This document shows positions 1,823-20,184 of a stretch of DNA of 26,966 bases, piece by piece; position 1 is the first letter of the stretch; each line of letters begins with the position of its first letter. The notes beneath the pieces were generated by a model that saw only the letters and a program-made list of their open reading frames with translations, was not told the DNA's origin and ran no database searches. This DNA is from a virus. The stretch is from positions 1-26,966 of the IMG/VR virus record IMGVR_UViG_3300025000_000368; one strand, 5' to 3'. The translations under genes were made by a program, and so were the position numbers.

Positions 1823-3730
1823 TTATACTAATTTTTTCAATAAACCGGCCAATAAATCATCTTTTTCCGTTTCAATTCCATCCAAAGCTCCATCGAAAAC
1901 CTTCCTCTTTTTATCCAGCAGCTTTATTATATCATTTTCGATGGTTCCGTCAGCGATTAAATAAAAGGCATTCACCGAATCATGCTCTTGACCGATCCTG
2001 TACACGCGGTCTTCAGCCTGAGCGTGCTTGGTCCAGGTCCACCAGAATTCGACGGTACAAGTCGCCCTGGCGGCAGTAAGGGTGATTGCTTCAATGGCAT
2101 CCTTCCCGCCGATAAATAATCTTGCTTTCAGGTTCGGAGTATATTGTTCACAGGCGGTAGGATCACTTTTGTGCTTGTCCTGAACTACCCCGCAGGCATC
2201 ACATTTCTGGAATTCATAAACGGAAGTTTTAACCTTGGAGTGGACGGCAATCTTTTTGAATTGCTCCAATAGCATTTGCTGGATCTCTTGATGTTCGCAA
2301 AAAACCACCAGTTTATCATCCGTTTCAAGAAATTCCTCAATCCATTCATAAACTGCCGGCATCTTACTTTTCGCGCAGGCAAACTTCAATTTTTCAATCT
2401 GGACCATGGCTGCAGCCGGGTTATATTCAAAGGTCTGCATCCGGCCTTCATCATCTCTTTTCCAGTCTCGGTCAGCCCAGGCTTTGAATTCTTTCATGCC
2501 GGCAGCGTATATCTTTTCGTCATATTCAATCGGGATGATCGAACGGATCTTATCAGGGAGTTCCTTGAGAACATCGACCTTATTTCTCCGGATCATTATA
2601 TACTGCAGCTTTTCATATAATTCTGGGATATGGCTGGCCCCGGTTACGACCCATCCCCAATCTCCTTCATAAGCGCCACAATAGCGCTTGGCATAATCCC
2701 AATAGGAAGGGAAGAGCCAGGGGGAAAGAAGATTTACGGCGGCAAACAACTCGATAGGCCGGTTATCAAAAGGGGTACCGGACATGGCAATGAATTTTTC
2801 AATTGAGGTACCAAGGCTCTTGAATGCCTTTGAACGGTTGGCCTTGGGGTTTTTAATATAGTGAATTTCATCACCAATCAATACCTTGAAATCCGTAGCT
2901 AATAATACCGGTTCCCAGGCCTTGAGGATATCGTAATTGATTATTGTAACCTGCTCCTTGATCTTTTTGATACCAGGTTTCCGACCCTTACAAATAAAGA
3001 TTGATCTTCCCGGGAGCCAGATGTTTACTTCATTTCTCCAATTCAATTTTGATCCACCAGTTGTGACTATCAGGATCGGAGTTTCTTTGATGAGATGACA
3101 ATATGCAAGAGCCTGGACCGTTTTGCCGAGACCCATATCGTCCCCGAGTAAAGCCCGGCCGCCTTTTGCGTGGATGAAATTTACTCCTTCGTTTTGGTAT
3201 TCGCGGAGGGTTCCAGGCAGGCCGGGGGTCTCAATTCTATTGGTTAGAGTCGATGCTTTGCGGCAGACTTTTCGTTGCTTCCGGCGCAGATCCCGATGGA
3301 AAGAGAACCCCCATTCCTTGAGGTGGAGAAGATTATCAAGGGTAAATTGACAGCTATATGAATCATCGCTGGCCCGGTATCGTCGATTGAATAGTTGTTT
3401 GGTGCGGATGGCATCGGCTCGGTCATTGGTTTTCAGGCGGATTGAGATACCATCAAGCCAGGCGATTTTGTCATATTGCGAGGGGAGTTCTTTCTTTTCA
3501 GGAGAGGCAATAACTTCCAAGCCGGCCAACTTATCATGGTATTTCGGCAGTATTCTGGCGGCAGCTTGCAGCTGCGGATCAGAGAGCAAACCGGTTGATT
3601 CATATTGCCGCGCCAGGATTTTAAGGATCTTCCGCTCAGTACATTTGAAAACCTTATCTCCACCAAAAAGATGGAGAAGCGCGGCAATAGTATAGTCCGG
3701 ATCGGTCTTTATGAGTTGGCGGAGTTGCAT
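1823..3730 (-). CDS. SNF2-family DNA-dependent ATPase / helicase
   Basis: A 635-residue superfamily 2 ATPase of the SNF2 type. Motif I is LGDDMGLGKT (195-204), motif II is DEIH (287-290), motif III contains SGTP (317-320), and motif VI is QAEDRVYRIGQ (571-581). The first 170 residues contain a short beta-rich region before the helicase core. A Cys group (C510, C513, C527) lies inside the second RecA lobe and may be a degenerate zinc knuckle. The start at 3730 is chosen because it overlaps the previous stop as TAATG; an ORF extension to 3808 would run through that gene. Phage SNF2 proteins usually sit in replication or recombination modules, as here. The substrate is unknown. Confidence 0.9.
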   Translation of the reverse strand: MQLRQLIKTDPDYTIAALLHLFGGDKVFKCTERKILKILARQYESTGLLSDPQLQAAARILPKYHDKLAGLEVIASPEKKELPSQYDKIAWLDGISIRLKTNDRADAIRTKQLFNRRYRASDDSYSCQFTLDNLLHLKEWGFSFHRDLRRKQRKVCRKASTLTNRIETPGLPGTLREYQNEGVNFIHAKGGRALLGDDMGLGKTVQALAYCHLIKETPILIVTTGGSKLNWRNEVNIWLPGRSIFICKGRKPGIKKIKEQVTIINYDILKAWEPVLLATDFKVLIGDEIHYIKNPKANRSKAFKSLGTSIEKFIAMSGTPFDNRPIELFAAVNLLSPWLFPSYWDYAKRYCGAYEGDWGWVVTGASHIPELYEKLQYIMIRRNKVDVLKELPDKIRSIIPIEYDEKIYAAGMKEFKAWADRDWKRDDEGRMQTFEYNPAAAMVQIEKLKFACAKSKMPAVYEWIEEFLETDDKLVVFCEHQEIQQMLLEQFKKIAVHSKVKTSVYEFQKCDACGVVQDKHKSDPTACEQYTPNLKARLFIGGKDAIEAITLTAARATCTVEFWWTWTKHAQAEDRVYRIGQEHDSVNAFYLIADGTIENDIIKLLDKKRKVFDGALDGIETEKDDLLAGLLKKLV

Positions 3731-3936
3731 TACAATAAGGTCAAGGTTATGGGGATTGACTGGGATGAAACTTTTCCTTTTCTGCAGGCACCTTTTCTGC
3801 CAACCCAATAGGAATATACCGAATCGTCCGCCTTTTTAAATTGTCGATATTTCCTGGATTTGGAAGGCAGGATCTCGACAAGTCCCCTTGATTTTAAAAA
3901 TTCAATGACCTTTTCTTCCTTGGTTTGCTTTGCCAT
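3730..3936 (-). CDS. Small conserved protein upstream of the SNF2 helicase (68 aa)
   Basis: A basic 68-residue protein. An N-terminal helix-rich segment (EEKVIEFLKSRGLVEI) is followed by SRKYRQF and YSYWVGRKGACRKGK. This layout recalls small phage proteins found directly before SNF2 helicases, in which a short winged-helix-like start is followed by a beta hairpin ending in a basic tail. The last base of its stop is shared with the helicase ATG, so the two are very probably co-translated and may work together. GGTGGGGAT precedes the start. Function is unknown. Confidence 0.7.
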   Translation of the reverse strand: MAKQTKEEKVIEFLKSRGLVEILPSKSRKYRQFKKADDSVYSYWVGRKGACRKGKVSSQSIPITLTLL

Positions 3937-3945
3937 ATCCCCACC

Positions 3946-4461
3946 TTAATTCTGAAAAGTTGATCTGATTTGATTAAACGCCCGCTCGATCCCCCGGCCC
4001 TTGAATCCCATATCCCGCATGGTCCGTTCAATGGTCTTCCGGATATTGCCGGCAGAATTTCCCGCTGTGATATTGGTCATTTCCTTTGGTGACTCGAAAA
4101 TGATCCGCAATACCTGTTTTGCCTCGGCCCCAAGGGAAGAGAGGGATTCAAGAAATTCATATCGCTGGTGACCACTCGGCCTATGATCCGCTACATCAAC
4201 TTCCTCATTCGTTGCCGGGAACTTCTTCCCCTGGGTTTTCAAATACTGAACCATGGCATTCCGGCAGGTGGTATGAATTAAGGTGGATAATTCGCAACCA
4301 TGATCTGGATTGAATTTCTTGATTGCCCTCAGCATTGCAATAGTTCCTTCCGACTTGAGGTCATCAAATTCATGACCAGTTGTTTTGGCAAAGGACCAGG
4401 CGAGTTTGTTTACTTGGGAAATATGTTTTTCAACGAGCTGGTTGGTGTGATTGGGGGTCAT
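3946..4461 (-). CDS. Sigma-70 region 2-like transcription factor
   Basis: A 171-residue protein whose first 75 residues match sigma factor region 2: a helical start, then DDLKSEGTIAMLRAIKKF (33-50), NPDHGCELSTLI (51-62) and a following helix RNAMVQYLK. Region 2 binds the core polymerase clamp and melts the -10 element. The C-terminal half is helical and basic and may contain a divergent region 4, but no clear helix-turn-helix is readable. AGGAGA eight bases before the ATG supports the start. Its place in the early operon suggests a switch to later phage promoters; alternatively it is a sigma-derived DNA-binding protein without promoter activity. Confidence 0.7.
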   Translation of the reverse strand: MTPNHTNQLVEKHISQVNKLAWSFAKTTGHEFDDLKSEGTIAMLRAIKKFNPDHGCELSTLIHTTCRNAMVQYLKTQGKKFPATNEEVDVADHRPSGHQRYEFLESLSSLGAEAKQVLRIIFESPKEMTNITAGNSAGNIRKTIERTMRDMGFKGRGIERAFNQIRSTFQN

Positions 4462-7113: not shown

Positions 7114-7923
7114 ATGGTAAATATAAGGGGAAGGAAATTAACAAGAAATCTTCCACCCCAGAAATCCCGCTCCATATATATCAACCTCAACAAGTACAAA
7201 ATTATGGTTCGTCAATCCTCCCCAGGCCTCCAAAACACAATACAGAAGCCAACACTCAAGTATAAGCCCGCCGGCAAAGGCCCCATCAAGGCCACTCCCC
7301 TCCTGAAGATAAATCCCAATGATTCCACCGTCAAAAGGAAATGCGCCCGGAGATATAACAAGATAAATGAACTCCAAAGGCAGATAAAAGCAATACAAGA
7401 ACAGATGCACGCAGGGGTCGAGCCCATATATAAGAAGGATACCCATCCGGCATTGGCTTTGTCGTATTGTTTGTTGGGTTGTACGGATGAGAAGCTGGCC
7501 AGGCTGTTGGGGATTGAGGTTGAGACGTTACATAAATGGCGGGACGATGATGACGAATTTAATTATGCCATTATAGAGGGGCGTGAAGTAGCTAATGCAA
7601 ACGTGGCGAAAAGCCTTTATCATCGGGCATGTGGCTACAACCTGGAAGAGAAGGAATATCGCCAAGAATTCAAGAAGGATATCGATGGTAATATAGTCCG
7701 GGATGAGGAAGGTTATCCTATACGGGAGATCATACTTCATAAACTGGTAAAGAAACATATGCCGGCCGATGTTGCCAGCGCCAAATTCTTTTTGTGGAAT
7801 CGTACCAAAACGCTTCCCAAGGCCGAACAATGGAATGACCGCCAGGATATTGATATTACCACCGGCGACACCCCAATTGGTTCTGCGGTTATCATACTCC
7901 CCCAGAAGGAAATGGTTGGATGA
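7114..7923 (+). CDS. terS: Terminase small subunit
   Basis: A 269-residue protein preceding the large terminase. A helix-turn-helix is visible as LLGCTDEKLARLLGIEVETLHKW (about 123-145), with EFNYAIIEGREVANANVAKSLYHRA after it, the usual order of phage small terminases: recognition helix, then oligomerising helices. Small subunits form rings that find the packaging site and stimulate the large-subunit ATPase. The basic N-terminal 90 residues are longer than usual; the start is uncertain because no good ribosome binding site precedes 7114 or the in-frame ATG at 7204. The stop overlaps the large-subunit ATG as ATGA. Confidence 0.8.
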   Translation: MVNIRGRKLTRNLPPQKSRSIYINLNKYKIMVRQSSPGLQNTIQKPTLKYKPAGKGPIKATPLLKINPNDSTVKRKCARRYNKINELQRQIKAIQEQMHAGVEPIYKKDTHPALALSYCLLGCTDEKLARLLGIEVETLHKWRDDDDEFNYAIIEGREVANANVAKSLYHRACGYNLEEKEYRQEFKKDIDGNIVRDEEGYPIREIILHKLVKKHMPADVASAKFFLWNRTKTLPKAEQWNDRQDIDITTGDTPIGSAVIILPQKEMVG

Positions 7924-9308
7924 CAGCAGCAATGCCTCAACAAGAAGTAATTGAGATAAAACCCCAGGAGGGGCCGCAGACTCAGTTTCTTGCGTGTTGG
8001 GCAGATGTTGTTTTTTATGGTGGTTCGGCCGGAGGGGGAAAATCATTCGCCCTTCTGCTGGAACCCTTATATCACGTAAACAATTCCAAATTCGGTGCGG
8101 TCATTTTCCGCCGGACCACCAAACAGATTACTTCAGAAGGTGGGTTGTGGGATGAAGCCTCGGAGTTGTATCCGGCCATTGGTGGCAAACCGAATCAGAA
8201 TGAATTGTGTTTCCGATTCCCCTCCAAGATGGCAATTAGTTTTGCCCATATGGAGCACGAGAAGAATCGCTTGGACTGGCAAGGGTCGCAGATCCCGTTG
8301 ATTGGTTTTGATGAGATATGCCACTTTACCTGGAAGCAGTTTTCGTATATGCTTTCCCGGAACCGGTCCATGTCTGGTGTCCCTGGCCGAATCCGAGGAA
8401 CCTGCAATCCTGATCCTGATTCATGGGTCCGGAAGTTCATTGACTGGTGGATTGGTCCAGATGGTTTTGTTATTGCCAGTAGATCAGGTGTAATTCGCTG
8501 GTTTATTCTTCTTGGCGATGAAGTTATATGGGGTGATTCAAAACAAGAATTACTCGACAAATACAGTACCGCTGATGCGCCCGTTCAACCGCTCTCCTTT
8601 ACCTTCATCCGTTCAACGATCAATGATAATAAGATTCTCCTCCAGAAAGATCCGACCTATCTTGCAAAACTGAACGCTCTCCCCCGGGTTGAACGGGCGC
8701 AGCTTCTTGAGGGGAATTGGAATGTACGACCAACCGCCGGCAGTTATTTCAAGCGGACTGATTTTGAAATAGTGAGTGCAGTGCCGGCCGGAGCAAAAAG
8801 AGTTCGAGCATGGGATCTTGCCGGGACTGATCGAGATCCGGAAGACCGAAAGGCGAAGAAAGATGGCGGGCCGGCATATACCGCTGGGATCAGGATGGCC
8901 AAGGTTGCCGGGGTTTATTACATCGAAGATTCAACTCGTTTTCAAATTGATGCCAGTAAAGTAATCGACTCCATCAAGAATATTGCCAGCCAGGATGGTA
9001 AGTTGGTGCCGGTTCGATTACCGCAAGATCCTGGTCAGGCCGGTAAGAGCCAGGCAAAGGCCTTCGTCAAAGAATTGGCCGGTTATACAATAAAGACATT
9101 GCCGGTTACAGGCTCGAAAGAGACCCGGGCCACCCCATTGGCCAGTCAAGCCCAGGCCGGCAATGTAAAACTGGTACAGGGCGCGTGGAATGAAGCATTT
9201 TTGCTTGAGGCAGAAAACTTTCCGGAAGGCAAATTCAAGGATCAGGTTGATGCGGCTGCCGATGCCTTTGATGAATTGACTAATACAAAACGAGTAGGGA
9301 CGTGGTGA
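7920..9308 (+). CDS. terL: Terminase large subunit
   Basis: A 462-residue DNA packaging motor. The ATPase half has Walker A GGSAGGGKS (34-42), Walker B LIGFDE (127-132) and the coupling segment TCNPD (161-165). The nuclease half has WDLAGTDRD (298-306), QDPGQAG (369-375) and DQVDAAADAF (441-450), the three acidic clusters of the RNase H-like terminase nuclease. It should translocate DNA into the prohead through the portal and cut concatemers. The start at 7920 is coupled to the small-subunit stop; a second ATG at 7932 is possible. All key residues are present, so it looks functional. Confidence 0.95.
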   Translation: MTAAMPQQEVIEIKPQEGPQTQFLACWADVVFYGGSAGGGKSFALLLEPLYHVNNSKFGAVIFRRTTKQITSEGGLWDEASELYPAIGGKPNQNELCFRFPSKMAISFAHMEHEKNRLDWQGSQIPLIGFDEICHFTWKQFSYMLSRNRSMSGVPGRIRGTCNPDPDSWVRKFIDWWIGPDGFVIASRSGVIRWFILLGDEVIWGDSKQELLDKYSTADAPVQPLSFTFIRSTINDNKILLQKDPTYLAKLNALPRVERAQLLEGNWNVRPTAGSYFKRTDFEIVSAVPAGAKRVRAWDLAGTDRDPEDRKAKKDGGPAYTAGIRMAKVAGVYYIEDSTRFQIDASKVIDSIKNIASQDGKLVPVRLPQDPGQAGKSQAKAFVKELAGYTIKTLPVTGSKETRATPLASQAQAGNVKLVQGAWNEAFLLEAENFPEGKFKDQVDAAADAFDELTNTKRVGTW

Positions 9309-11158: not shown

Positions 11159-12694
11159 ATGATATCTCTCTTCCTTACAAACTCGATTGACCCAACTCGG
11201 ACTATTACTCTCCGTAATAAGTTCGTGGCTGAGATGCGCAATCGGTTTGCCAGTTTAATGATAGATATCCGCCAGGCAGTAATAGAATTGGATGTTTTTG
11301 GTCTGATAGAGGAAACAAGAGTTACCGTAAATGCCAGTGGATTATCTTCCAAGCAATACGACTTCCCCAGGAATGACCAAAAAGTTGAAGCATTTGTCAA
11401 GTGGCTGAAAGCAAAGAACGAGGAGTATTTTTTTACAGATGGGAAGCAGGGTTTGAGGATGGCTTTTGATTTGATCAGTTCCAATCCCAACTCCGCTAGA
11501 TCCACCTGGATGAAATTATATATCGATAGTGCATACCAACAGGGGATCAGAAGGGCCAGGCAGGAACTCAGAAAAAAGGGGATAGAAATCGATGAAGGAC
11601 AACTCGGAGGAGAACCAATCGTTTCTGCTTTTAATGGCCCAGTTCATGCTGATCGTGTTGGTCTTATTTATACAAGAGCGTATTCCTCTCTTCAAGGTAT
11701 TACTGCGGAGATGGAGTCAGTGGTATCCGATGTCTTGGCAATGGGCCTGGCTGACGGCCGAGGACCAAGAGAAATTGCGCGACTATTGAATAAAGCGATT
11801 ACAGGCGATGGTACTGGCGCTGACTTATCGATTATAGATTCCCTTGGCCGGAAGATCCCGGCAAGACGAAGGGCGGAAGTACTGGCGCGTACTGAAGTTA
11901 TTCGGGCACATCACTCTGCCAATATTGGTGAGTACAAGGCTGCTGGCATTCTGGGGATCAATGTTCAGGTGGAGTGGCTGACTGCTGGGGATGATAGGGT
12001 ATGTCCTAAGTGTTCCCCGATGAATGGTAAGTTGTTTTTGATTGATGATGCAGAGTATATAATCCCGGCACATCCACAATGTCGGTGTGTGGCTTTACCG
12101 TATATTCCGGAGGATGAAGTGATTGTTGACGGATCAATAAAAAACGGGCAAACAGGATATGAAGATACAAGCCAATTACCACTGGCAATGTCAAGCAAAG
12201 CGAAGGATTTGGCAAATCCGAAATATCGGGATTTTTTAAAATTGCTTGCTTCTGATGGCGAAAAACAAGAAGTAATGCCAAAACTCGAAGAACTTTATAA
12301 TATTGTAACTTCTGATACATATAAATTAAAAGAGAAAGAAAAAGTATTTTTTGGCCTTGGTGGCGAACAATTTAAAAATATACAAGTTGGTGATAAATTC
12401 TCTGCGCTTGGCACTAGGTCAACCGCTTTTGAATTAAAAAGAGCTTTGGCGTATGGAAAAGATGGTGGTGTTTTTGAAGTAATTTTACCAAAAGGAACTC
12501 ATGCAGTTTATTCTGAAGTAATGGGAATAAAAGAATTGATGTTACTTCCTGGGAGTGAGTTTGAGGTTACAGAAATTTTAGAAAATGGAGTTCGTAAGTT
12601 AAAGTTGAAATCAGATGGGACTTCATATATAAAAGAATTAATGAAATTTCAAAAAGAACTCGATAAAATTGCAATCGATAATAAAAAGGAATAG
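11159..12694 (+). CDS. MuF minor head protein with C-terminal ADP-ribosyltransferase-like domain
   Basis: A 511-residue fusion. Residues about 150-315 are the MuF head-morphogenesis domain: LARTEVIRAHHSANIGEYKAAG (242-263), then VEWLTAGDDRVCPKC (271-285) and AHPQCRC (304-310), the Cys/His set of this family. MuF proteins are carried in the capsid in some phages. Residues about 385-485 resemble an ADP-ribosyltransferase: VFFGLG (396-401) where the family has an Arg-Gly, RSTA (420-423) for the STS block, VFEVILPKGT (438-447), and KELMLLPGSEFEV (458-470) for the ExE-LLPxGT block. Glu459 could be the catalytic Glu; the Arg appears lost. DNA for the last third is clearly AT-richer than the MuF part. 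No good ribosome binding site is seen before 11159. Confidence 0.75.
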   Translation: MISLFLTNSIDPTRTITLRNKFVAEMRNRFASLMIDIRQAVIELDVFGLIEETRVTVNASGLSSKQYDFPRNDQKVEAFVKWLKAKNEEYFFTDGKQGLRMAFDLISSNPNSARSTWMKLYIDSAYQQGIRRARQELRKKGIEIDEGQLGGEPIVSAFNGPVHADRVGLIYTRAYSSLQGITAEMESVVSDVLAMGLADGRGPREIARLLNKAITGDGTGADLSIIDSLGRKIPARRRAEVLARTEVIRAHHSANIGEYKAAGILGINVQVEWLTAGDDRVCPKCSPMNGKLFLIDDAEYIIPAHPQCRCVALPYIPEDEVIVDGSIKNGQTGYEDTSQLPLAMSSKAKDLANPKYRDFLKLLASDGEKQEVMPKLEELYNIVTSDTYKLKEKEKVFFGLGGEQFKNIQVGDKFSALGTRSTAFELKRALAYGKDGGVFEVILPKGTHAVYSEVMGIKELMLLPGSEFEVTEILENGVRKLKLKSDGTSYIKELMKFQKELDKIAIDNKKE

Positions 12695-12697
12695 CTG

Positions 12698-12961
12698 ATG
12701 AATATTAAACTAAAAAATGAGAAAAAATGTATCGGATGCCCTTATCTTCATCTTGAATTAAAAGGGGAGGATATTGATTCGGAATGTTCTAAATGTCTAG
12801 AGGGATATTGTGGTGGAGAAGACAGGAGATACTGTGACCCTTATTTATATAAAACTGACAATCCAAAGAAAAATAAATGGGTATGCCTAAAATACAAAAA
12901 AGATTTACGAACATGTGAAAAACCAGGAAGATTAGAAATATGTTTGAAAGAAAATAAGTAA
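12698..12961 (+). CDS. Cys-rich small protein, possible partner of the MuF-ART protein (87 aa)
   Basis: An 87-residue lysine-rich protein with many Cys: CIGCPYL, ECSKCLEGYCGGE, then further single Cys residues. The first two C-x2-C pairs could bind zinc or an iron-sulfur cluster. I do not recognise the family. It starts three bases after the MuF-ART stop and shares that domain's AT-rich composition, so both were probably acquired together. In MuF polymorphic toxin loci the next gene is often the immunity gene, which is the leading hypothesis here. Confidence 0.65.
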   Translation: MNIKLKNEKKCIGCPYLHLELKGEDIDSECSKCLEGYCGGEDRRYCDPYLYKTDNPKKNKWVCLKYKKDLRTCEKPGRLEICLKENK

Positions 12962-14826: not shown

Positions 14827-15900
14827 ATGAATAAAACGTATGGAAATGCTGGGATTGAATTTATTCAGAATGGTGCCGGGTCTGGCCCCGTATCGCAGAA
14901 ACTGATGGCCGGTGGAATGTCTGTTGGCCTGCTCAAACCTTGGATTGGAACTGATGGCAATCCCTATGCCGTTGTCTATAATGGCGGACAGCCGCAGGTA
15001 GTCAGGGTCAACGCCGCCACTCTCCGGAAAGATGAGTGGAAGGAACTCGATTCCGCAGTTATGTTTGCTGCCCAGGAGCGTCTTGTTGGTGTAGCTGATC
15101 TGTATTCCCGGAATCTGGTATATCGGATTGGTAATGGTCTTGGAAAAACCGTTCTTGAGTATGAGGACATCTCCGAGCTTACTGCCGCTGAACTGACCAT
15201 GGATGCGGTTACTCCGAGCAAGAGGGATCGGCCCGAAACGACCCTGAAGTATTTGCCCCTGCCCATCGTCCATAAGGATTTCCAGTACAATATCCGGACC
15301 CTGACGGCTTCCAGGAATGGCAGCACACCCCTGGATACCACCACAGCCACCATGGCGGCTCGGGTTGTGGCAGAGAAGATCGAGGAGATGCTGTTTGCTG
15401 GCGTTTCTTCTTACGCTTACGGCGGCGGAACGATTTACGGGTACTTAGACCACCCCCAGGCCAACGACGTCACCTTGACGGCAAATTGGGACGCCTCCGG
15501 TAAGACTGGTGAGCAGATTCTTGATGATGTTCGGGAAATGAAACAGGCTTCCATCGACTCCCATTTCTACGGTCCCTGGGTTCTCTATGTGCCGACTTCG
15601 TATGAGACTGTTCTCGATGACGATTACAAGGCTGAATCCGATAAGACCATTCGTCAGCGTATCTTGGAAATCGCCGGCATTACTGAGGTCAAAGTCGTTG
15701 ACAAACTGACCGCCGATAACGTTATCCTGGTTCAGATGACTTCTGATGTTGTCAGGATTGTTGAAGGTCTGCCTCTTACTACGGTTGAGTGGACTGAAGG
15801 TGGCGGCATGACTACCAATTACAAGGTTATGACAATCATGGTTCCGCAGATTCGGGCTGATCAGAATGGCAACTGTGGTGTAACGGTACTGCACGCTTAA
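14827..15900 (+). CDS. Major capsid protein, HK97 fold
   Basis: A 357-residue protein with features of encapsulin-like phage capsids: LYSRNLVYRIGNGLGKT (about 97-113), a beta-rich region with LPLPIVHKDFQYNIR, ARVVAEKIEEMLFAG (the spine helix region), then GYLDHPQANDVTL, VLYVPTSYETVLDDDY and a C-terminal beta strand set. The order E-loop region, spine helix, P-domain, A-domain is that of the HK97 fold. TAGGAGG seven bases before ATG indicates high expression. A hairpin lies just after the stop. The encapsulin-like subgroup is my reading of the sequence; capsid identity is supported by position between cement and connector genes. Confidence 0.8.
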   Translation: MNKTYGNAGIEFIQNGAGSGPVSQKLMAGGMSVGLLKPWIGTDGNPYAVVYNGGQPQVVRVNAATLRKDEWKELDSAVMFAAQERLVGVADLYSRNLVYRIGNGLGKTVLEYEDISELTAAELTMDAVTPSKRDRPETTLKYLPLPIVHKDFQYNIRTLTASRNGSTPLDTTTATMAARVVAEKIEEMLFAGVSSYAYGGGTIYGYLDHPQANDVTLTANWDASGKTGEQILDDVREMKQASIDSHFYGPWVLYVPTSYETVLDDDYKAESDKTIRQRILEIAGITEVKVVDKLTADNVILVQMTSDVVRIVEGLPLTTVEWTEGGGMTTNYKVMTIMVPQIRADQNGNCGVTVLHA

Positions 15901-15992: not shown

Positions 15993-16472
15993 ATGAACCT
16001 TTGTAAATATAGAAAGAAAGCAAAAACAGGCCGGCACTCTTTTAAGTATGAGGGGAAAAGATATTCGGTTGTGCCTGGAGATACAGTCGAAGTACCGGAG
16101 GGATTTCTTGGTTCCTTCGAAAAAGATTATGATTGTTTGACGGCGATCAAACCGATTCCCGAACCGGTAAAGATCCAAGCACCAATTGCCCCGCCGAAAG
16201 AACTCCATCTGATCCGGGTTCAGCGGGGAATGTATAATATTATCAATCCGGACAATCCCGATAAACCCCTGAATGACGCCCCGATGAAAAAGAAGGATGC
16301 CGAGGTGATCATGGGGAAGATGATGGAGATCCCCAAGACTGAAATTGTCGACCTTGGTACTCTGGGCTGGGATGCTCTGATCGGTATCATGGAAGAGGAA
16401 GGGATCGAGATCCTCGAAGAGTACGAAAGTGAAGATCAACTCCGAGAAGCAATCCTTGATGCCCGTGGCTGA
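15993..16472 (+). CDS. Hypothetical head-region protein (159 aa)
   Basis: A 159-residue protein of unknown family. The first 45 residues read as a small beta domain (HSFKYEGKRYSVVPGDTVEVP), followed by a Pro-rich linker (PIPEPVKIQAPIAPPKE) and a helical C-terminal part with LGWDALIGIMEEEGIEILEE and EDQLREAILDA, which recalls a small HeH/LEM-like helix pair. AAGGAGG before the ATG supports the start. The N-terminal part resembles small domains found in phage head-tail region proteins; a virion role is likely. Confidence 0.6.
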   Translation: MNLCKYRKKAKTGRHSFKYEGKRYSVVPGDTVEVPEGFLGSFEKDYDCLTAIKPIPEPVKIQAPIAPPKELHLIRVQRGMYNIINPDNPDKPLNDAPMKKKDAEVIMGKMMEIPKTEIVDLGTLGWDALIGIMEEEGIEILEEYESEDQLREAILDARG

Positions 16473-16510: not shown

Positions 16511-16741
16511 ATGTCATATTCACTCGAAACCCCTTGTTGTAATTTTCATCCATCGACTCCACCAAATGATTGTCTTAAAAAAGACACTTGTACAGATCGG
16601 CATATTCTTTATGGGGCTGTTTGCGCAATACATCAAATGCCGTTTGGTGTTGGACATCTGGGCGCAGGTACGATAACATTAACCTGCAATAATAAAGTTG
16701 TAGCAGAATCAATGCCAAAAGAAAGATACGTCAAAGATTGA
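16511..16741 (+). CDS. Small Cys-rich hypothetical protein (76 aa)
   Basis: A 76-residue protein of unknown family with TPCCNFHP, C-x5-C and later Cys residues, then HQMPFGVGHLGAGTITLTCNNK. The Cys and His residues could form a metal site. AAAGGATAATAAAATG is a fair ribosome binding site. The gene is AT-richer than the capsid genes and stands at the left end of the sugar/sulfate modification block, one base before the DUF115-like gene. Confidence 0.55.
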   Translation: MSYSLETPCCNFHPSTPPNDCLKKDTCTDRHILYGAVCAIHQMPFGVGHLGAGTITLTCNNKVVAESMPKERYVKD

Positions 16742-16742
16742 T

Positions 16743-17405
16743 ATGTCGTTCTGGGAAATACCAAGGATTTGGCCTGAGTCGACTGTCTTCATTATCGGTG
16801 GTGGAGTCAGTCTTTTAAAACAGGATTTATCACTCATCCATAATCACCGAGTGATCGGAGTGAATCAGGCATATAAACTCGGGCCTTGGGTTGATGCCTG
16901 CTGGTTTGGTGACAAAGGTTGGTACGAAGAGAATTTACCGGCGATAACGGAGTATGGAGGGCTGATTGCTACTTGCGCAGCTACTCTTCCAGGACAGAGA
17001 AAAGTTAGGGTGAAATATGTTGGCAGAAGTAAACCATCTGGAATTGAGATCAAGAGAAGAAATGGTATTGCCTGGAATGGAAACTCCGGGGCTTCGGCGA
17101 TCAATTTTGCCTACTGGCTTGGAGCAAAAACTGTCGTCCTACTCGGCTTCGATATGCAGAACCCGGCTGATCCAAAGGATACGCAGTCTCATTGGCATAA
17201 CGACTATGAAGTCAGGTTCGACAAAAAAGCAGGAAGACTTCATGACCCATACCCAAAGTTTATGAAGTACTGGCCAGTAATAGCCAGGGATGCAAATCAG
17301 GTTGGATTGAAGATTATAAACGCAACAGTCGGCGGCGCTCTTGAAACATTTGAACGAAAACCATTAGAGGCCATATGTCAGGATTTATCAGCCCATACGT
17401 TGTAA
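16743..17405 (+). CDS. DUF115 / sialyltransferase-like Rossmann protein
   Basis: A 220-residue protein with VFIIGGGVSLL (15-25), a glycine-rich nucleotide-binding start, and NGNSGASAINFAYWLGAKTV (112-131) followed by VLLGFDMQ. The pattern SG.sA...A..LGak.v.LlGfDm is shared by DUF115 (Maf-type flagellin glycosylation) proteins and by GT42-type sialyltransferases. Its likely role is transfer or handling of a nucleotide-activated sugar. It overlaps the acyltransferase gene by 31 bases, so the two are co-translated. Exact donor and acceptor are unknown. Confidence 0.6.
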   Translation: MSFWEIPRIWPESTVFIIGGGVSLLKQDLSLIHNHRVIGVNQAYKLGPWVDACWFGDKGWYEENLPAITEYGGLIATCAATLPGQRKVRVKYVGRSKPSGIEIKRRNGIAWNGNSGASAINFAYWLGAKTVVLLGFDMQNPADPKDTQSHWHNDYEVRFDKKAGRLHDPYPKFMKYWPVIARDANQVGLKIINATVGGALETFERKPLEAICQDLSAHTL

Positions 17406-17872
17406 TTGACCAAGGGGTCAAGTTAGCTCTGACTACTAAAGTCTTCCATTTTGTTGTCCTTCGAGACAATGTGGAGATTGGCGAGAACTCGATTGTTGGT
17501 CATAATGTGGTGATTGAAAGGGATACCAAGATCGGCAACAATACGACGATTCAATCTCAATGCCATATCACCGCAGAAGCCACTATCGGTGACAATGTTT
17601 TCTTCGGTCCGGGAGTAGTAATGACCAATGAGAAGAACATTGCCAATCAGGGGAGAGCGGTTCCAAAGATTGAGCGGGCTATTATCGGCAATGGAGCTCG
17701 GATTGGGGCTGGTGCTGTGATTGCCCCTGGCGTAAATATTGGCGAGAATGCTTTCATTCATGCCAATTCTTTTGTAACGAAAGACATTCCGGCTGGTGAA
17801 GTTTGGGGAACGCCTCATGGTAAGAGTCGAGCAGTCAAGATTGGTACAGTGCCGGAGAGTGAATGGCTATGA
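17375..17872 (+). CDS. Hexapeptide-repeat acyltransferase
   Basis: A 165-residue left-handed beta-helix protein. Repeats of the form [ILV]-G-x4 are clear: VEIGENSIVGHNVVIERDTK, then IGNNTTI, IGDNVFFGPGVV, IIGNGARIGAGAVIAPG and VNIGENAFI, ending in VTKDIPAGEVWGTPHGK. This is typical of WbbJ/WlbB-type O- or N-acetyltransferases that modify sugars, working as trimers with acetyl-CoA. GAGG lies six bases before the start, which is inside the previous gene. The product fits addition of an acyl group to a sugar made or moved by the neighbouring enzymes. Confidence 0.85.
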   Translation: MSGFISPYVVIDQGVKLALTTKVFHFVVLRDNVEIGENSIVGHNVVIERDTKIGNNTTIQSQCHITAEATIGDNVFFGPGVVMTNEKNIANQGRAVPKIERAIIGNGARIGAGAVIAPGVNIGENAFIHANSFVTKDIPAGEVWGTPHGKSRAVKIGTVPESEWL

Positions 17873-18498
17873 TTAATCAGATCCCTTCAATAGTCGTTTG
17901 CCTTCGCTCTGGCGGTGATTATTACCCAGGCCATGTGAGAGCACTCGCAAGACAGATTGAACGCAATGCGACGATTCCTTATCGTTTTGTTTGCTATACA
18001 GATCAGGCTGATGAACTTCCGGAAATAGAGACGGTTGAACTTGAAAAGAATTATCCCGGCTGGTGGTCTTGCGTCGAACTTTGGAAACACCAAGGACCGA
18101 CAATTGCTATTGGCCTGGATACAATGATCCTGAAGAACATTGACGACCTTTTGAAAATGGTCTGTCATATCCCGGAAGATGATTTCTTTTTGCTTGATTC
18201 GTTCTTTCATCCGGGAGAATTTATCAATGGGATGCAGGCATGGAATGGAGATTGGTCCTGGCTGTATGATGAGTTTGACTTTGAGAAGGAATCAAAACTC
18301 CATCGTGGTGATGAAAATTACCAGATAAATGCTTTGCTGACCAAAGGGGTCGATTTAACAGCAATCCAAGAATACTTTGCCGGGATTTGTAATTACAAAC
18401 TCCATATTCGGAAGAACCTTGTGAAAGATCCGGGAATCATCATTTTCCATGGCGATCCCAAGCCCTGGCGGACGAATCTATGGAGGTTAGTGGAATGA
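17863..18498 (+). CDS. Glycosyltransferase, copy 1 of a tandem pair
   Basis: A 211-residue GT-A-like protein. It has HVRALARQIERN and PYRFVCYTD, then the diagnostic block PGWWSCVELW and IGLDTMILKNIDDLL (83-97), AWNGDWSWLYDEFDFEK and IIFHGDPKPW. The layout matches GT8-like nucleotide-sugar transferases, in which the central block is normally DxD; here the first Asp is Gly84 and only Asp86 remains. The ATG at 17863 has GGAG five bases upstream; an alternative ATG at 17869 overlaps the previous stop as ATGA. It is a clear paralog of the next gene. Confidence 0.7.
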   Translation: MAMINQIPSIVVCLRSGGDYYPGHVRALARQIERNATIPYRFVCYTDQADELPEIETVELEKNYPGWWSCVELWKHQGPTIAIGLDTMILKNIDDLLKMVCHIPEDDFFLLDSFFHPGEFINGMQAWNGDWSWLYDEFDFEKESKLHRGDENYQINALLTKGVDLTAIQEYFAGICNYKLHIRKNLVKDPGIIIFHGDPKPWRTNLWRLVE

Positions 18499-19142
18499 AG
18501 TCAACAATGCCGGTGTTTGCTTGTGTACTGAAGCTTGGGGGGGATTATATAGAAGAGCACGTCCGACTCCTTGCAGCGCAGGTACAAGCAAATACGACGA
18601 TTCCTTACGACTTCATTTGTTTTACAGACTCCAAGGAAAAGATTGATGGCGTCGTCTCTATTCCCCTGATTAATAACTGGCCAGGTTGGTGGTCTGTCCC
18701 TGAGGTTTTTCGGAATATTGGTCCGACTGTTGTAACTGGTATTGATACAATGATCCGTGGTAACATTGATGACTTATTTAAGGTGGCCACTGACTCTACA
18801 GAAAAAGATTTTTGGATGATTCGTTCTTTCAGACCACCAGTCAGAACTATCTCAGGAATTATGGCCTGGAATGGAGATTGGTCATGGCTGTATGACCAAT
18901 TTGATTATGAGAAATTTTCCAAGCAGCTTCGTGGTGAAGAAGATTATACGAATACCAAATTGAAAGAGAAACGAATCATCCCCAGGATATTACAAGACGC
19001 CTTCCCGGAGAGCATCTATTCATATAAGCGACATTGTTCTGGTGGAATATCTTCAAATTGTAAGGTGCTTGTTTTCCATGGTAAACCCAGGCCGTTTGAA
19101 GTCCCAACCCTTTGGCAAGAGATTGTAAAGGAGCATGCATGA
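18495..19142 (+). CDS. Glycosyltransferase, copy 2 of a tandem pair
   Basis: A 215-residue paralog of the preceding protein with the same blocks: HVRLLAAQVQAN, PYDFICFTD, PGWWSVPEVF, TGIDTMIRGNIDDLF (81-95), AWNGDWSWLYDQFDYEK and LVFHGKPRPF. Here too the DxD position is Gly-x-Asp (Gly82, Asp84). The start at 18495 is chosen because it overlaps the previous stop as ATGA and GGAGG lies eight bases upstream. The copies differ at most positions outside the blocks, so the duplication is old or the genes were acquired as a pair. Different sugar specificity is likely. Confidence 0.7.
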   Translation: MKSTMPVFACVLKLGGDYIEEHVRLLAAQVQANTTIPYDFICFTDSKEKIDGVVSIPLINNWPGWWSVPEVFRNIGPTVVTGIDTMIRGNIDDLFKVATDSTEKDFWMIRSFRPPVRTISGIMAWNGDWSWLYDQFDYEKFSKQLRGEEDYTNTKLKEKRIIPRILQDAFPESIYSYKRHCSGGISSNCKVLVFHGKPRPFEVPTLWQEIVKEHA

Positions 19143-19816
19143 AAGATCCGATTTTAGTAGTTGGTTGTGCCCGTTCTGGAACATCGATGACGGCAGGTAT
19201 GCTCAATATCTGTGGGGCTTTTGGCGGGGAGATGTATGGACCCAGTATTGATGCCCAGAAGGGGATGTTTGAAAATTGCAATCTCCGGAATGATATTGTT
19301 AAACCGTACCTGAAAAAGATCGGCGCCGACCCAATGGGCCAGAAGCCACTTCCGAACAATCGCCAGGTATTTGAAGTTTCCCAGCCGGAAGCAGATCACT
19401 GGAGAGATATCGTTCAGCGGCTTATGATGTCTCAGGGATATAAAAGTGGTGAATGGTTCTGCAAATGTACCAAGGCTGCTGGAATGTGGTATATGTGGCA
19501 TAAAGCCTTTCCAAAAGCTAAATGGATTATCATTCATCGGAATCATAAGGATATCATCAGGAGCTGCCAATTAACGAGATTCATGCGGGCTTACCGGGAT
19601 GAGGCTGGCTGGCAGTCTTGGATAGACCAGCACGAAAAAAGATTTGCAGAAATGCATACTGCTAAGCTGGATATCTTTGACTTCTGGCCTTCCCGACTTT
19701 GTGCTGGAGATTGGGATTATGCTAGGCAGTTGATAGAGAGTGTTGGCTTGGTATTCAACGAGCCTATGGTCAAAGCCTTTATCGAGCCGAAATGGTTCAA
19801 TGAGGAGGGCAAGTAA
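19139..19816 (+). CDS. PAPS-dependent sulfotransferase-like protein
   Basis: A 225-residue protein with ILVVGCARSGTSMTAGML (5-22), in which RSGTS (12-16) is the 5'-phosphosulfate loop, and WIIIHRNHKDIIRSC (129-143), where Arg134 and Ser142 are spaced as in the 3'-phosphate-binding motif (Arg, eight residues on, Ser). These are the two PAPS-binding motifs of sulfotransferases. It likely moves sulfate from PAPS to a sugar or other hydroxyl. AAGGAG six bases before the ATG supports the start, which overlaps the previous stop as ATGA. The last base of its stop is shared with the next, structural, gene. Confidence 0.75.
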   Translation: MKDPILVVGCARSGTSMTAGMLNICGAFGGEMYGPSIDAQKGMFENCNLRNDIVKPYLKKIGADPMGQKPLPNNRQVFEVSQPEADHWRDIVQRLMMSQGYKSGEWFCKCTKAAGMWYMWHKAFPKAKWIIIHRNHKDIIRSCQLTRFMRAYRDEAGWQSWIDQHEKRFAEMHTAKLDIFDFWPSRLCAGDWDYARQLIESVGLVFNEPMVKAFIEPKWFNEEGK

Positions 19817-20184
19817 TGCCTCGCGTAACTGACGCTGAAGTATTTGCTATTATTGATACCACTTTGACTGACATTGATGTTTTTATCAATACGGCAAATA
19901 TGATGGTAACTTCCTGGCTGGAAACGGCTGGTTTAACCGATGAAACCTTGAAGGAGATCGAACGGTATCTTTCCGCCCACGTCTTGAGCGTACAGGATCA
20001 GAGGACCAAATCGGTAAAAGTAGATACGCTTGGCGAAACTTATCAGGGGCAGTGGGGAATGGGGCTGAATGGTACCAGCTATGGCCAGATGGCAATTCTC
20101 CTGGATATTTCCGGAACTCTTGGGAAGATAGCCAAAAATGGATATAGCAAATCCGCTTCCCTGAATATGATAGGGTATCACTGA
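19816..20184 (+). CDS. Head-tail connector (adaptor) protein
   Basis: A 122-residue helical protein with IERYLSAHVLSVQDQRTKSV and GETYQGQWGMGLNGTSYGQMA, the pattern of small head completion or adaptor proteins that dock below the portal. GGAGG precedes the ATG, and TAATG overlap joins it to the sulfotransferase gene. It is the first of four genes in standard neck order. Confidence 0.7.
   Translation: MPRVTDAEVFAIIDTTLTDIDVFINTANMMVTSWLETAGLTDETLKEIERYLSAHVLSVQDQRTKSVKVDTLGETYQGQWGMGLNGTSYGQMAILLDISGTLGKIAKNGYSKSASLNMIGYH

Follow-up and report, generated by a model that had tools for sequence, protein, structure and literature searches.

Gene content and organization of the locus

The stretch of DNA analyzed here, hereafter the window, has 26,966 bases (virus record IMGVR_UViG_3300025000_000368), and its + strand carries, from about 7.1 kb onward, a packaging-head-tail operon ordered as terminase (7114-9308), portal, MuF-like protein, protease-like protein, decoration protein, major capsid protein (MCP), two small genes and then a block of five genes, here called A to E, which is the subject of this work. 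The block encodes glycosyltransferase-like proteins (A, C and D), an acyltransferase (B) and a sulfotransferase (E), is followed from 19816 by a DUF4054-like connector and then by neck and tail genes, and is a real and conserved cassette. The interval bordered by the MCP and connector genes is referred to as the island, and its features are the following:

14827..15900, + strand: MCP (DUF6260/phrog_771), left border of the island, assigned by family matches
15993..16472, + strand: g15993, small gene between MCP and A; 46 of 48 related islands carry a homologue
16511..16741, + strand: orphan reading frame of 76 amino acids, found elsewhere, among the loci fetched, only in the near-identical locus L002
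16743..17405, + strand: gene A, Maf/GT42-like glycosyltransferase (phrog_4603), first recognized enzyme of the island
17375..17872, + strand: gene B, hexapeptide acyltransferase, whose nearest solved relatives are sugar N-acetyltransferases
17863..18498, + strand: gene C, phrog_1962 glycosyltransferase with GLDT replacing DLDT
18495..19142 (alternative start 18480), + strand: gene D, phrog_1962 glycosyltransferase, paralogue of C and relative of P1 PmgQ
19139..19816, + strand: gene E, 3'-phosphoadenosine 5'-phosphosulfate (PAPS) sulfotransferase (Sulfotransfer_3), last recognized enzyme of the island
19816..20184, + strand: DUF4054-like head-tail connector, right border of the island, matching Pfam weakly (20.7 bits against a cut-off of 23.9)

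A first-pass annotation of this DNA had described five overlapping genes in a virion operon, and indeed all five reading frames are intact and each overlaps or abuts its neighbor, D (18495) and E (19139) starting in ATGA overlaps with the preceding stop and the connector gene starting at 19816 on the stop of E (TAATG). Its placement of the block between capsid and connector genes holds for both borders and needs amending on the left, where two small genes separate the MCP from A. The ratio of nonsynonymous to synonymous substitution rates (dN/dS) was 0.00-0.12 for A to E, 0.00-0.03 for E alone and 0.03-0.05 for the MCP in comparisons with four close relatives, a fifth, distant relative having been left out because synonymous sites were saturated for A to E. 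Genes A to E are under purifying selection, and E is constrained at least as much as the MCP; these values, together with the synteny described below, rule out chance reading frames or an annotation artefact. Since the GC content of the block (0.43-0.46) is similar to that of its surroundings and shows no step, a foreign island recognizable by composition could also be dismissed.

Recurrence of the island in related phages

The same genes were sought in other phages and proved recurrent. A search with E returned 31 loci, in which the order MCP - A ... E - connector is repeated down to 34-50% MCP identity. A second scan, led by an MCP alignment built from E-bearing loci, gave 484 matches, of which the best 80 were kept; 32 of these showed no connector and were excluded (A is present in 23 of them), leaving 48 islands seen end to end. 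Gene A was found in all 48, E in 35, a glycosyltransferase in 34 and B in 14, and no island was devoid of all of these. After collapsing at 90% MCP identity, 31 islands remained, with A in 31, E and the glycosyltransferases in 24 each and B in nine, A being the first recognized enzyme in 31/31 and E the last recognized one in 24/24. The earlier statement that no such genes normally occur at this position is thus contradicted within the clade.

The right end was also examined from the side of E, with a profile that counts every sulfotransferase it recognizes. Among 101 E-led loci, in which one contig may appear more than once, 97 show the connector, which lies at most 600 nt downstream of the end of E in 88 of them; in the remaining nine the distance was 690-871 nt (five loci) or not measurable (four).

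Between these fixed ends the island is variable (1.0-9.6 kb) and contains glycan-type genes. The smallest contains little beyond g15993 and A, and two others (L080, L084) contain g15993, A and E alone. Family assignments of other island genes, drawn from the 73 scanned (below) and listed for 25 of 48 families, include methyltransferases, family-2 glycosyltransferases, epimerases, UDP-glucose dehydrogenase, short-chain dehydrogenases, TylF-type methyltransferases, transketolase-like proteins and radical SAM proteins. Of 86 dereplicated island reading frames that had not been recognized, 73 were scanned and 13 short ones omitted; their pooled alignment joins unrelated proteins and served as a vehicle for the family scan only.

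Predicted functions of the five genes

Protein A (220 residues) matches the alpha-2,3-sialyltransferase family phrog_4603 over residues 18-213 (E 3.3e-34). Its predicted model, with a predicted local distance difference test score (pLDDT) of 96, is closest to 5mu5 (Z 15.1, root-mean-square deviation (rmsd) 3.7, 192 residues, identity 14%), a Maf enzyme that glycosylates flagellin and the sole Foldseek match at E <=1e-3; the GT42 enzyme CstII ranks after it (Z 12.4, rmsd 3.6, 176 residues, identity 19%). On the model, A would therefore carry a Maf/GT42 fold across most of its length, shared with these enzymes at low identity. A sequence search of solved structures with A gave nothing meaningful, and the conserved stretches of its family are GGG-S, GVN, LLGFDM and HWH.

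Protein B scores 98.6 bits for Pfam Hexapep (cut-off 27) and 80.3 bits, below the cut-off of 160.8, for the NeuD/PglB/VioB acetyltransferase family TIGR03570, and its best solved relatives are sugar N-acetyltransferases. An acylated decoration had been proposed from this gene: the acetyltransferase-like nature of B stands, while the relatives suggest that it is better read as N-acetylating an amino-sugar nucleotide. C and D, 42% identical to each other, match the phrog_1962 glycosyltransferases with E-values of 7.5e-25 and 1.5e-28, respectively, and had no match in Pfam or NCBIfam.

Protein E exceeds the cut-off of Pfam Sulfotransfer_3 (39 bits against 27), with no match in PHROG or NCBIfam and none in a sequence search of solved structures; a BFVD search returned one match under 1e-3, without a name. 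PAPS sulfotransferases are defined by a 5' phosphosulfate loop and a 3' phosphate Arg/Ser motif. Residues R12, S13, R134 and S142 are invariant across 23 aligned E proteins, and loose PAPS patterns occur in most of the 95 distinct E proteins (5'-loop-like in 87, 3' R-x7-S-like in 92). The glutamate E31 is nearly invariant and lies near the site of the catalytic glutamate of the tyrosylprotein sulfotransferases (TPSTs), to which it may correspond; other sulfotransferases likewise have a glutamate at that place. The predicted model of E (pLDDT 90) has its highest Z with TPST1/2 and a tick TPST (Z 15.4-16.1, rmsd 3.3-3.5, 187-196 residues, identity 11-14%), the next fold class following at Z 13.1, whereas by Foldseek E-value the mycobacterial STF1 comes first (1.4e-4) and the TPSTs occupy ranks 2-14. 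E is accordingly assigned to the PAPS sulfotransferases by family, with a predicted fold nearest to TPST by Z. Taken with the synteny and with the donor genes of relatives described below, these families and predicted folds support the enzyme classes, and the idea of a glycosylating and sulfating cassette, that the first-pass annotation had proposed.

Three loci (L015, on the same contig as L138; L074; and L153) carry two sulfotransferase genes. Relatives of E are also encoded on three contigs of metagenome-assembled genomes (MAGs) attributed to Deltaproteobacteria, Bacteroidota and Clostridium; these are suspected to be binned phage contigs.

Genes for activated donors

Some relatives encode enzymes that may supply the transferases. 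In 11 of 95 E lineages, E has a same-strand neighbor, at most 300 nt away, that resembles adenosine 5'-phosphosulfate (APS) kinase. Short genes of this type adjoin the sulfotransferase in L138 (10665-11159) and also in L012, L016, L134, L136, L137, L139, L143, L153, L155, L175 and L191; the proteins measure about 120-165 amino acids and, in the nine scanned, match approximately the first two thirds of PF01583. A full-length APS kinase is encoded elsewhere on the L051 contig, away from E. With one APS kinase as query, tblastn found matches in 7 of 50,697 phage records.

A KdsB-like gene was present in 8 of 33 capsid-led loci showing both terminase and portal (two of the eight being identical copies), in several cases arranged as terminase-kdsB-portal. 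Such genes adjoin the terminase or portal/MuF genes in L049 (1745-2506), L199 (1492-2223), L200 (1420-2154), L202, L203, L204 and L205. All of three tested genes scored over the KdsB subfamily cut-off and one of the three over the kdsB equivalog cut-off. At the level of virus records a cytidine monophosphate (CMP)-sugar synthetase was found in 5/23 and 2/35, and tblastn with one KdsB matched 7 of the 50,697 phage records. The 462-kb uncultured phage record LR756500.1 has matches to A, to an APS-kinase-like protein and to KdsB, each at a separate place in the genome.

A phage-made nonulosonic acid was rejected, given that NeuB, which makes these sugars, was found in 0/38 records. Gram-negative hosts produce CMP-activated 3-deoxy-D-manno-octulosonic acid (CMP-Kdo) themselves, which would account for the many phages lacking a gene of their own, and we consider CMP-Kdo the leading candidate for the donor used by A.

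Comparison with described phage systems

Among the 50,697 phage records E had no match, A matched 66, including those of P1 (pmgO), Caulobacter CcrSC, PAJU2 and U7, and D matched 31, including P1 (pmgQ) and phiNP. In the P1 run pmgO-pmgP-ppp-pmgQ, pmgO matches the profile of A (E 1.2e-31) and pmgQ the two glycosyltransferase profiles (E 1.2e-46 and 7.9e-50); the hdm genes of P7 and a gene pair of Citrobacter phiNP group with this system. Unlike the block, the P1 genes do not lie at the MCP-connector junction and have no E match beside them. CcrSC has a gene run after a tail gene, with one heptosyltransferase-family match and one annotated methyltransferase. An A-like gene is also present among the head-tail connector genes of two cultured phages of Pseudomonas, PAJU2 and U7; in U7 it follows closely on the MCP and immediately precedes the head-tail adaptor, a methyltransferase gene lying downstream. 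The position is therefore less unusual than first supposed, although both phages lack an E match and are outside the 11 records matching the MCP of the window.

Virion glycosylation encoded by phages is already known. In the mycobacteriophages Che8 and Rita (Freeman 2023), phage glycosyltransferases have been tied to capsid and tail-tube glycans that are described as a shield, and Maravista, a phage from that cluster, has its glycosylation genes toward the genome's 3' end (PMC11256854, PMC12619734 for the former; PMC11256854 for the latter); the accessible portions of these two sources mention no sulfation, Maf/GT42-like starter enzyme or MCP-connector site. The function of sulfotransferases in phage genomes has been called unclear (PMC10580990). 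No description of the cassette was found in searches of open-licence papers, nor any account of it in the available parts of PMC10580990, PMC10829341, PMC11256854, PMC10695390, PMC5241659, PMC10434257, PMC8290583 and PMC12619734, in line with the first-pass view that the system had not been described. Set against these systems, the new elements are the predicted sulfation, an island whose two ends are constant, and the genes for making donors. To our knowledge neither a virion sulfated by a phage enzyme nor protein-linked Kdo has been described.

Proposed function and alternative explanations

What was observed directly is the family-level identity of the genes, their order and conservation, the purifying selection on them, the resemblance of folds and the neighboring donor genes in relatives. 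From this we propose, with a probability of roughly 0.6, that a virion protein is glycosylated and sulfated by a modular cassette, of which the block represents one version and which belongs to the late head operon in a clade of uncultured phages. The enzymes would be soluble, made alongside the capsid and active in the cytosol: A would place the first sugar directly on a phage structural protein from a CMP-activated donor, C and D would lengthen the chain, B would feed an N-acetylated amino sugar into the sugar-nucleotide pool, and E would transfer sulfate from PAPS to the end of the chain or to an exposed side chain. The benefit may lie in changed adsorption, particle stability or shielding. 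A narrower form is, as a whole, rather improbable: in it a Maf-like A would attach Kdo to a protein associated with the capsid and E, resembling TPST, would sulfate that glycan or protein tyrosines, with CMP-Kdo sometimes derived from a phage KdsB and, in part of the clade, more PAPS provided by an APS kinase of the phage.

The particle is the most likely target of the modification, and the MCP, the decoration protein or g15993 may be the protein concerned. On the predicted models, both end enzymes, A and E, have their highest Z with protein-modifying enzymes. For g15993, Pfam, NCBIfam and PHROG gave no match; it is possibly a head accessory protein, and a candidate target. Its identity as a known head fiber was rejected, eight of its relatives yielding no named PHROG and only weak matches to families of unknown function (best E 8e-4), and its profile matches weakly a small gene of Hardycor1 and none of the small genes of MaInes, K1M and Mannheimia phage.

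Several observations weigh against the proposed cassette or limit its reach. A scores 17.1 bits for Pfam MptE-like PF01973, the Maf family, under the cut-off of 34.6, for which reason it is named Maf/GT42-like rather than Maf, and C and D carry GLDT where P1 PmgQ has DLDT, the first Asp of the DxD-like motif being absent. Acidic-tyrosine motifs, compared in 12 structural families, showed no consistent rise in E-bearing phages and did not single out a tyrosine-sulfation target: means per protein in E-bearing versus E-lacking phages, uncorrected for relatedness, were 0.55 vs 0.23 for g15993, 0.82 vs 0.45 for MuF, 0.14 vs 0 for DUF4054, 1.2 vs 1.08 for the MCP, 0.4 vs 1.46 for the decoration protein, 0.35 vs 0.92 for g20184, 0.52 vs 0.9 for the major tail protein and 2 vs 2.67 for the protease-like protein. 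No APS kinase or CMP-sugar synthetase was found in the record of the window, searched for both, and APS kinase exceeded its cut-off in 2/23 and 0/35 virus records (2/58), sets that, apart from the contig of L138, do not include the contigs with the short APS-kinase-like genes; most members would therefore rely on donors of the host. The presence of A in 48/48 islands holds for the near part of the clade, as the query came from E-bearing loci and the 80 highest-ranking of 484 matches were retained, and in phages with a more distant MCP (MaInes, Hardycor1 and Mannheimia 587AP2) the MCP-connector site is empty, while Citrobacter K1M has no annotated A-like gene adjoining its MCP. Finally, pmgO and pmgQ of P1 were nonessential in a CRISPR interference knock-down screen (PMC10695390).

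The first-pass annotation had left open whether the capsid, the tail or the host surface is decorated. That lipopolysaccharide (LPS) or capsule is altered during infection, leading to superinfection exclusion or preventing the progeny from sticking to debris, seems unlikely, even if the KdsB-like genes of relatives and the glycosyltransferase, epimerase and dehydrogenase genes of the islands also suit LPS chemistry and late expression would fit a role at release. A transmembrane-like window was detected in 8 of 325 island reading frames and in none of A to E, while GtrA, GtrB and GtrC of P22, used as control, were all positive; no membrane export step was thus recognized, and the membrane flippase and membrane transferase typical of gtrABC-type O-antigen conversion are not found among A to E. 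Tyrosine integrase PF00589 was found in 0/23 virus records of relatives and not in the record of the window, in records that may be fragments and with serine integrases not sought, so that lysogenic conversion of the P22 type appears unlikely. The membrane-bound host-surface route thus loses ground, and the top fold match of A, a protein glycosyltransferase, also argues against it.

DNA hypermodification, in which the transferases would act on modified bases and guard the genome from restriction, has precedents, since DNA-modifying phage glycosyltransferases are known (Pyle 2024, cited in PMC12619734) and nucleotide modification based on glycosyltransferases and sulfotransferases has been reported in phages according to a virome paper (PMC10829341). 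The block, however, sits in a head operon, and the fold matches of A and E act on proteins, sugars or small molecules. The thymidylate-synthase family is a usual source of hydroxymethyl bases, and PF00303 was found in 4/25 records, as partial matches, and not in that of the window; a Tet/JBP search (PF12851), in which no control gave a match, carries no weight. We consider this explanation very improbable, and assign a similarly slight chance to a landing site for host-derived cargo, where the genes would be unlinked auxiliary functions without a joint product. The size (1.0-9.6 kb) and content of the island middle are as variable as such a site would predict, but the fixed ends, the adjacency of E and APS kinase, the purifying selection and the shared glycan-type chemistry together argue for a common pathway.

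Other genes of the window

The MuF-like protein (11159-12694) has a long C-terminal extension beyond its Pfam Mu-F domain (residues 189-312) that by eye resembles an ADP-ribosyltransferase-type domain, with no Pfam match in that part, and the gap between the MuF-like and protease-like genes holds a cysteine-rich protein of 87 amino acids (12698-12961) without Pfam match. A leftward block on the - strand encodes, according to Pfam, a sigma-70-region-2-like factor (3946-4461) and an SNF2-type helicase (1823-3808).

Implications

Phage sulfotransferases have been listed as auxiliary metabolic genes of obscure purpose. The synteny reported here ties one such family to a virion operon, and sometimes to a donor gene, turning a vague annotation into a testable pathway, and it hints at what the so far unexplained P1 genes pmgO and pmgQ may do. 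If the particles are sulfated and glycosylated, their surface charge, adsorption and recognition would come under the control of the phage, and a variable cassette held between two fixed ends would, if this is true, represent a way to diversify particle surfaces.

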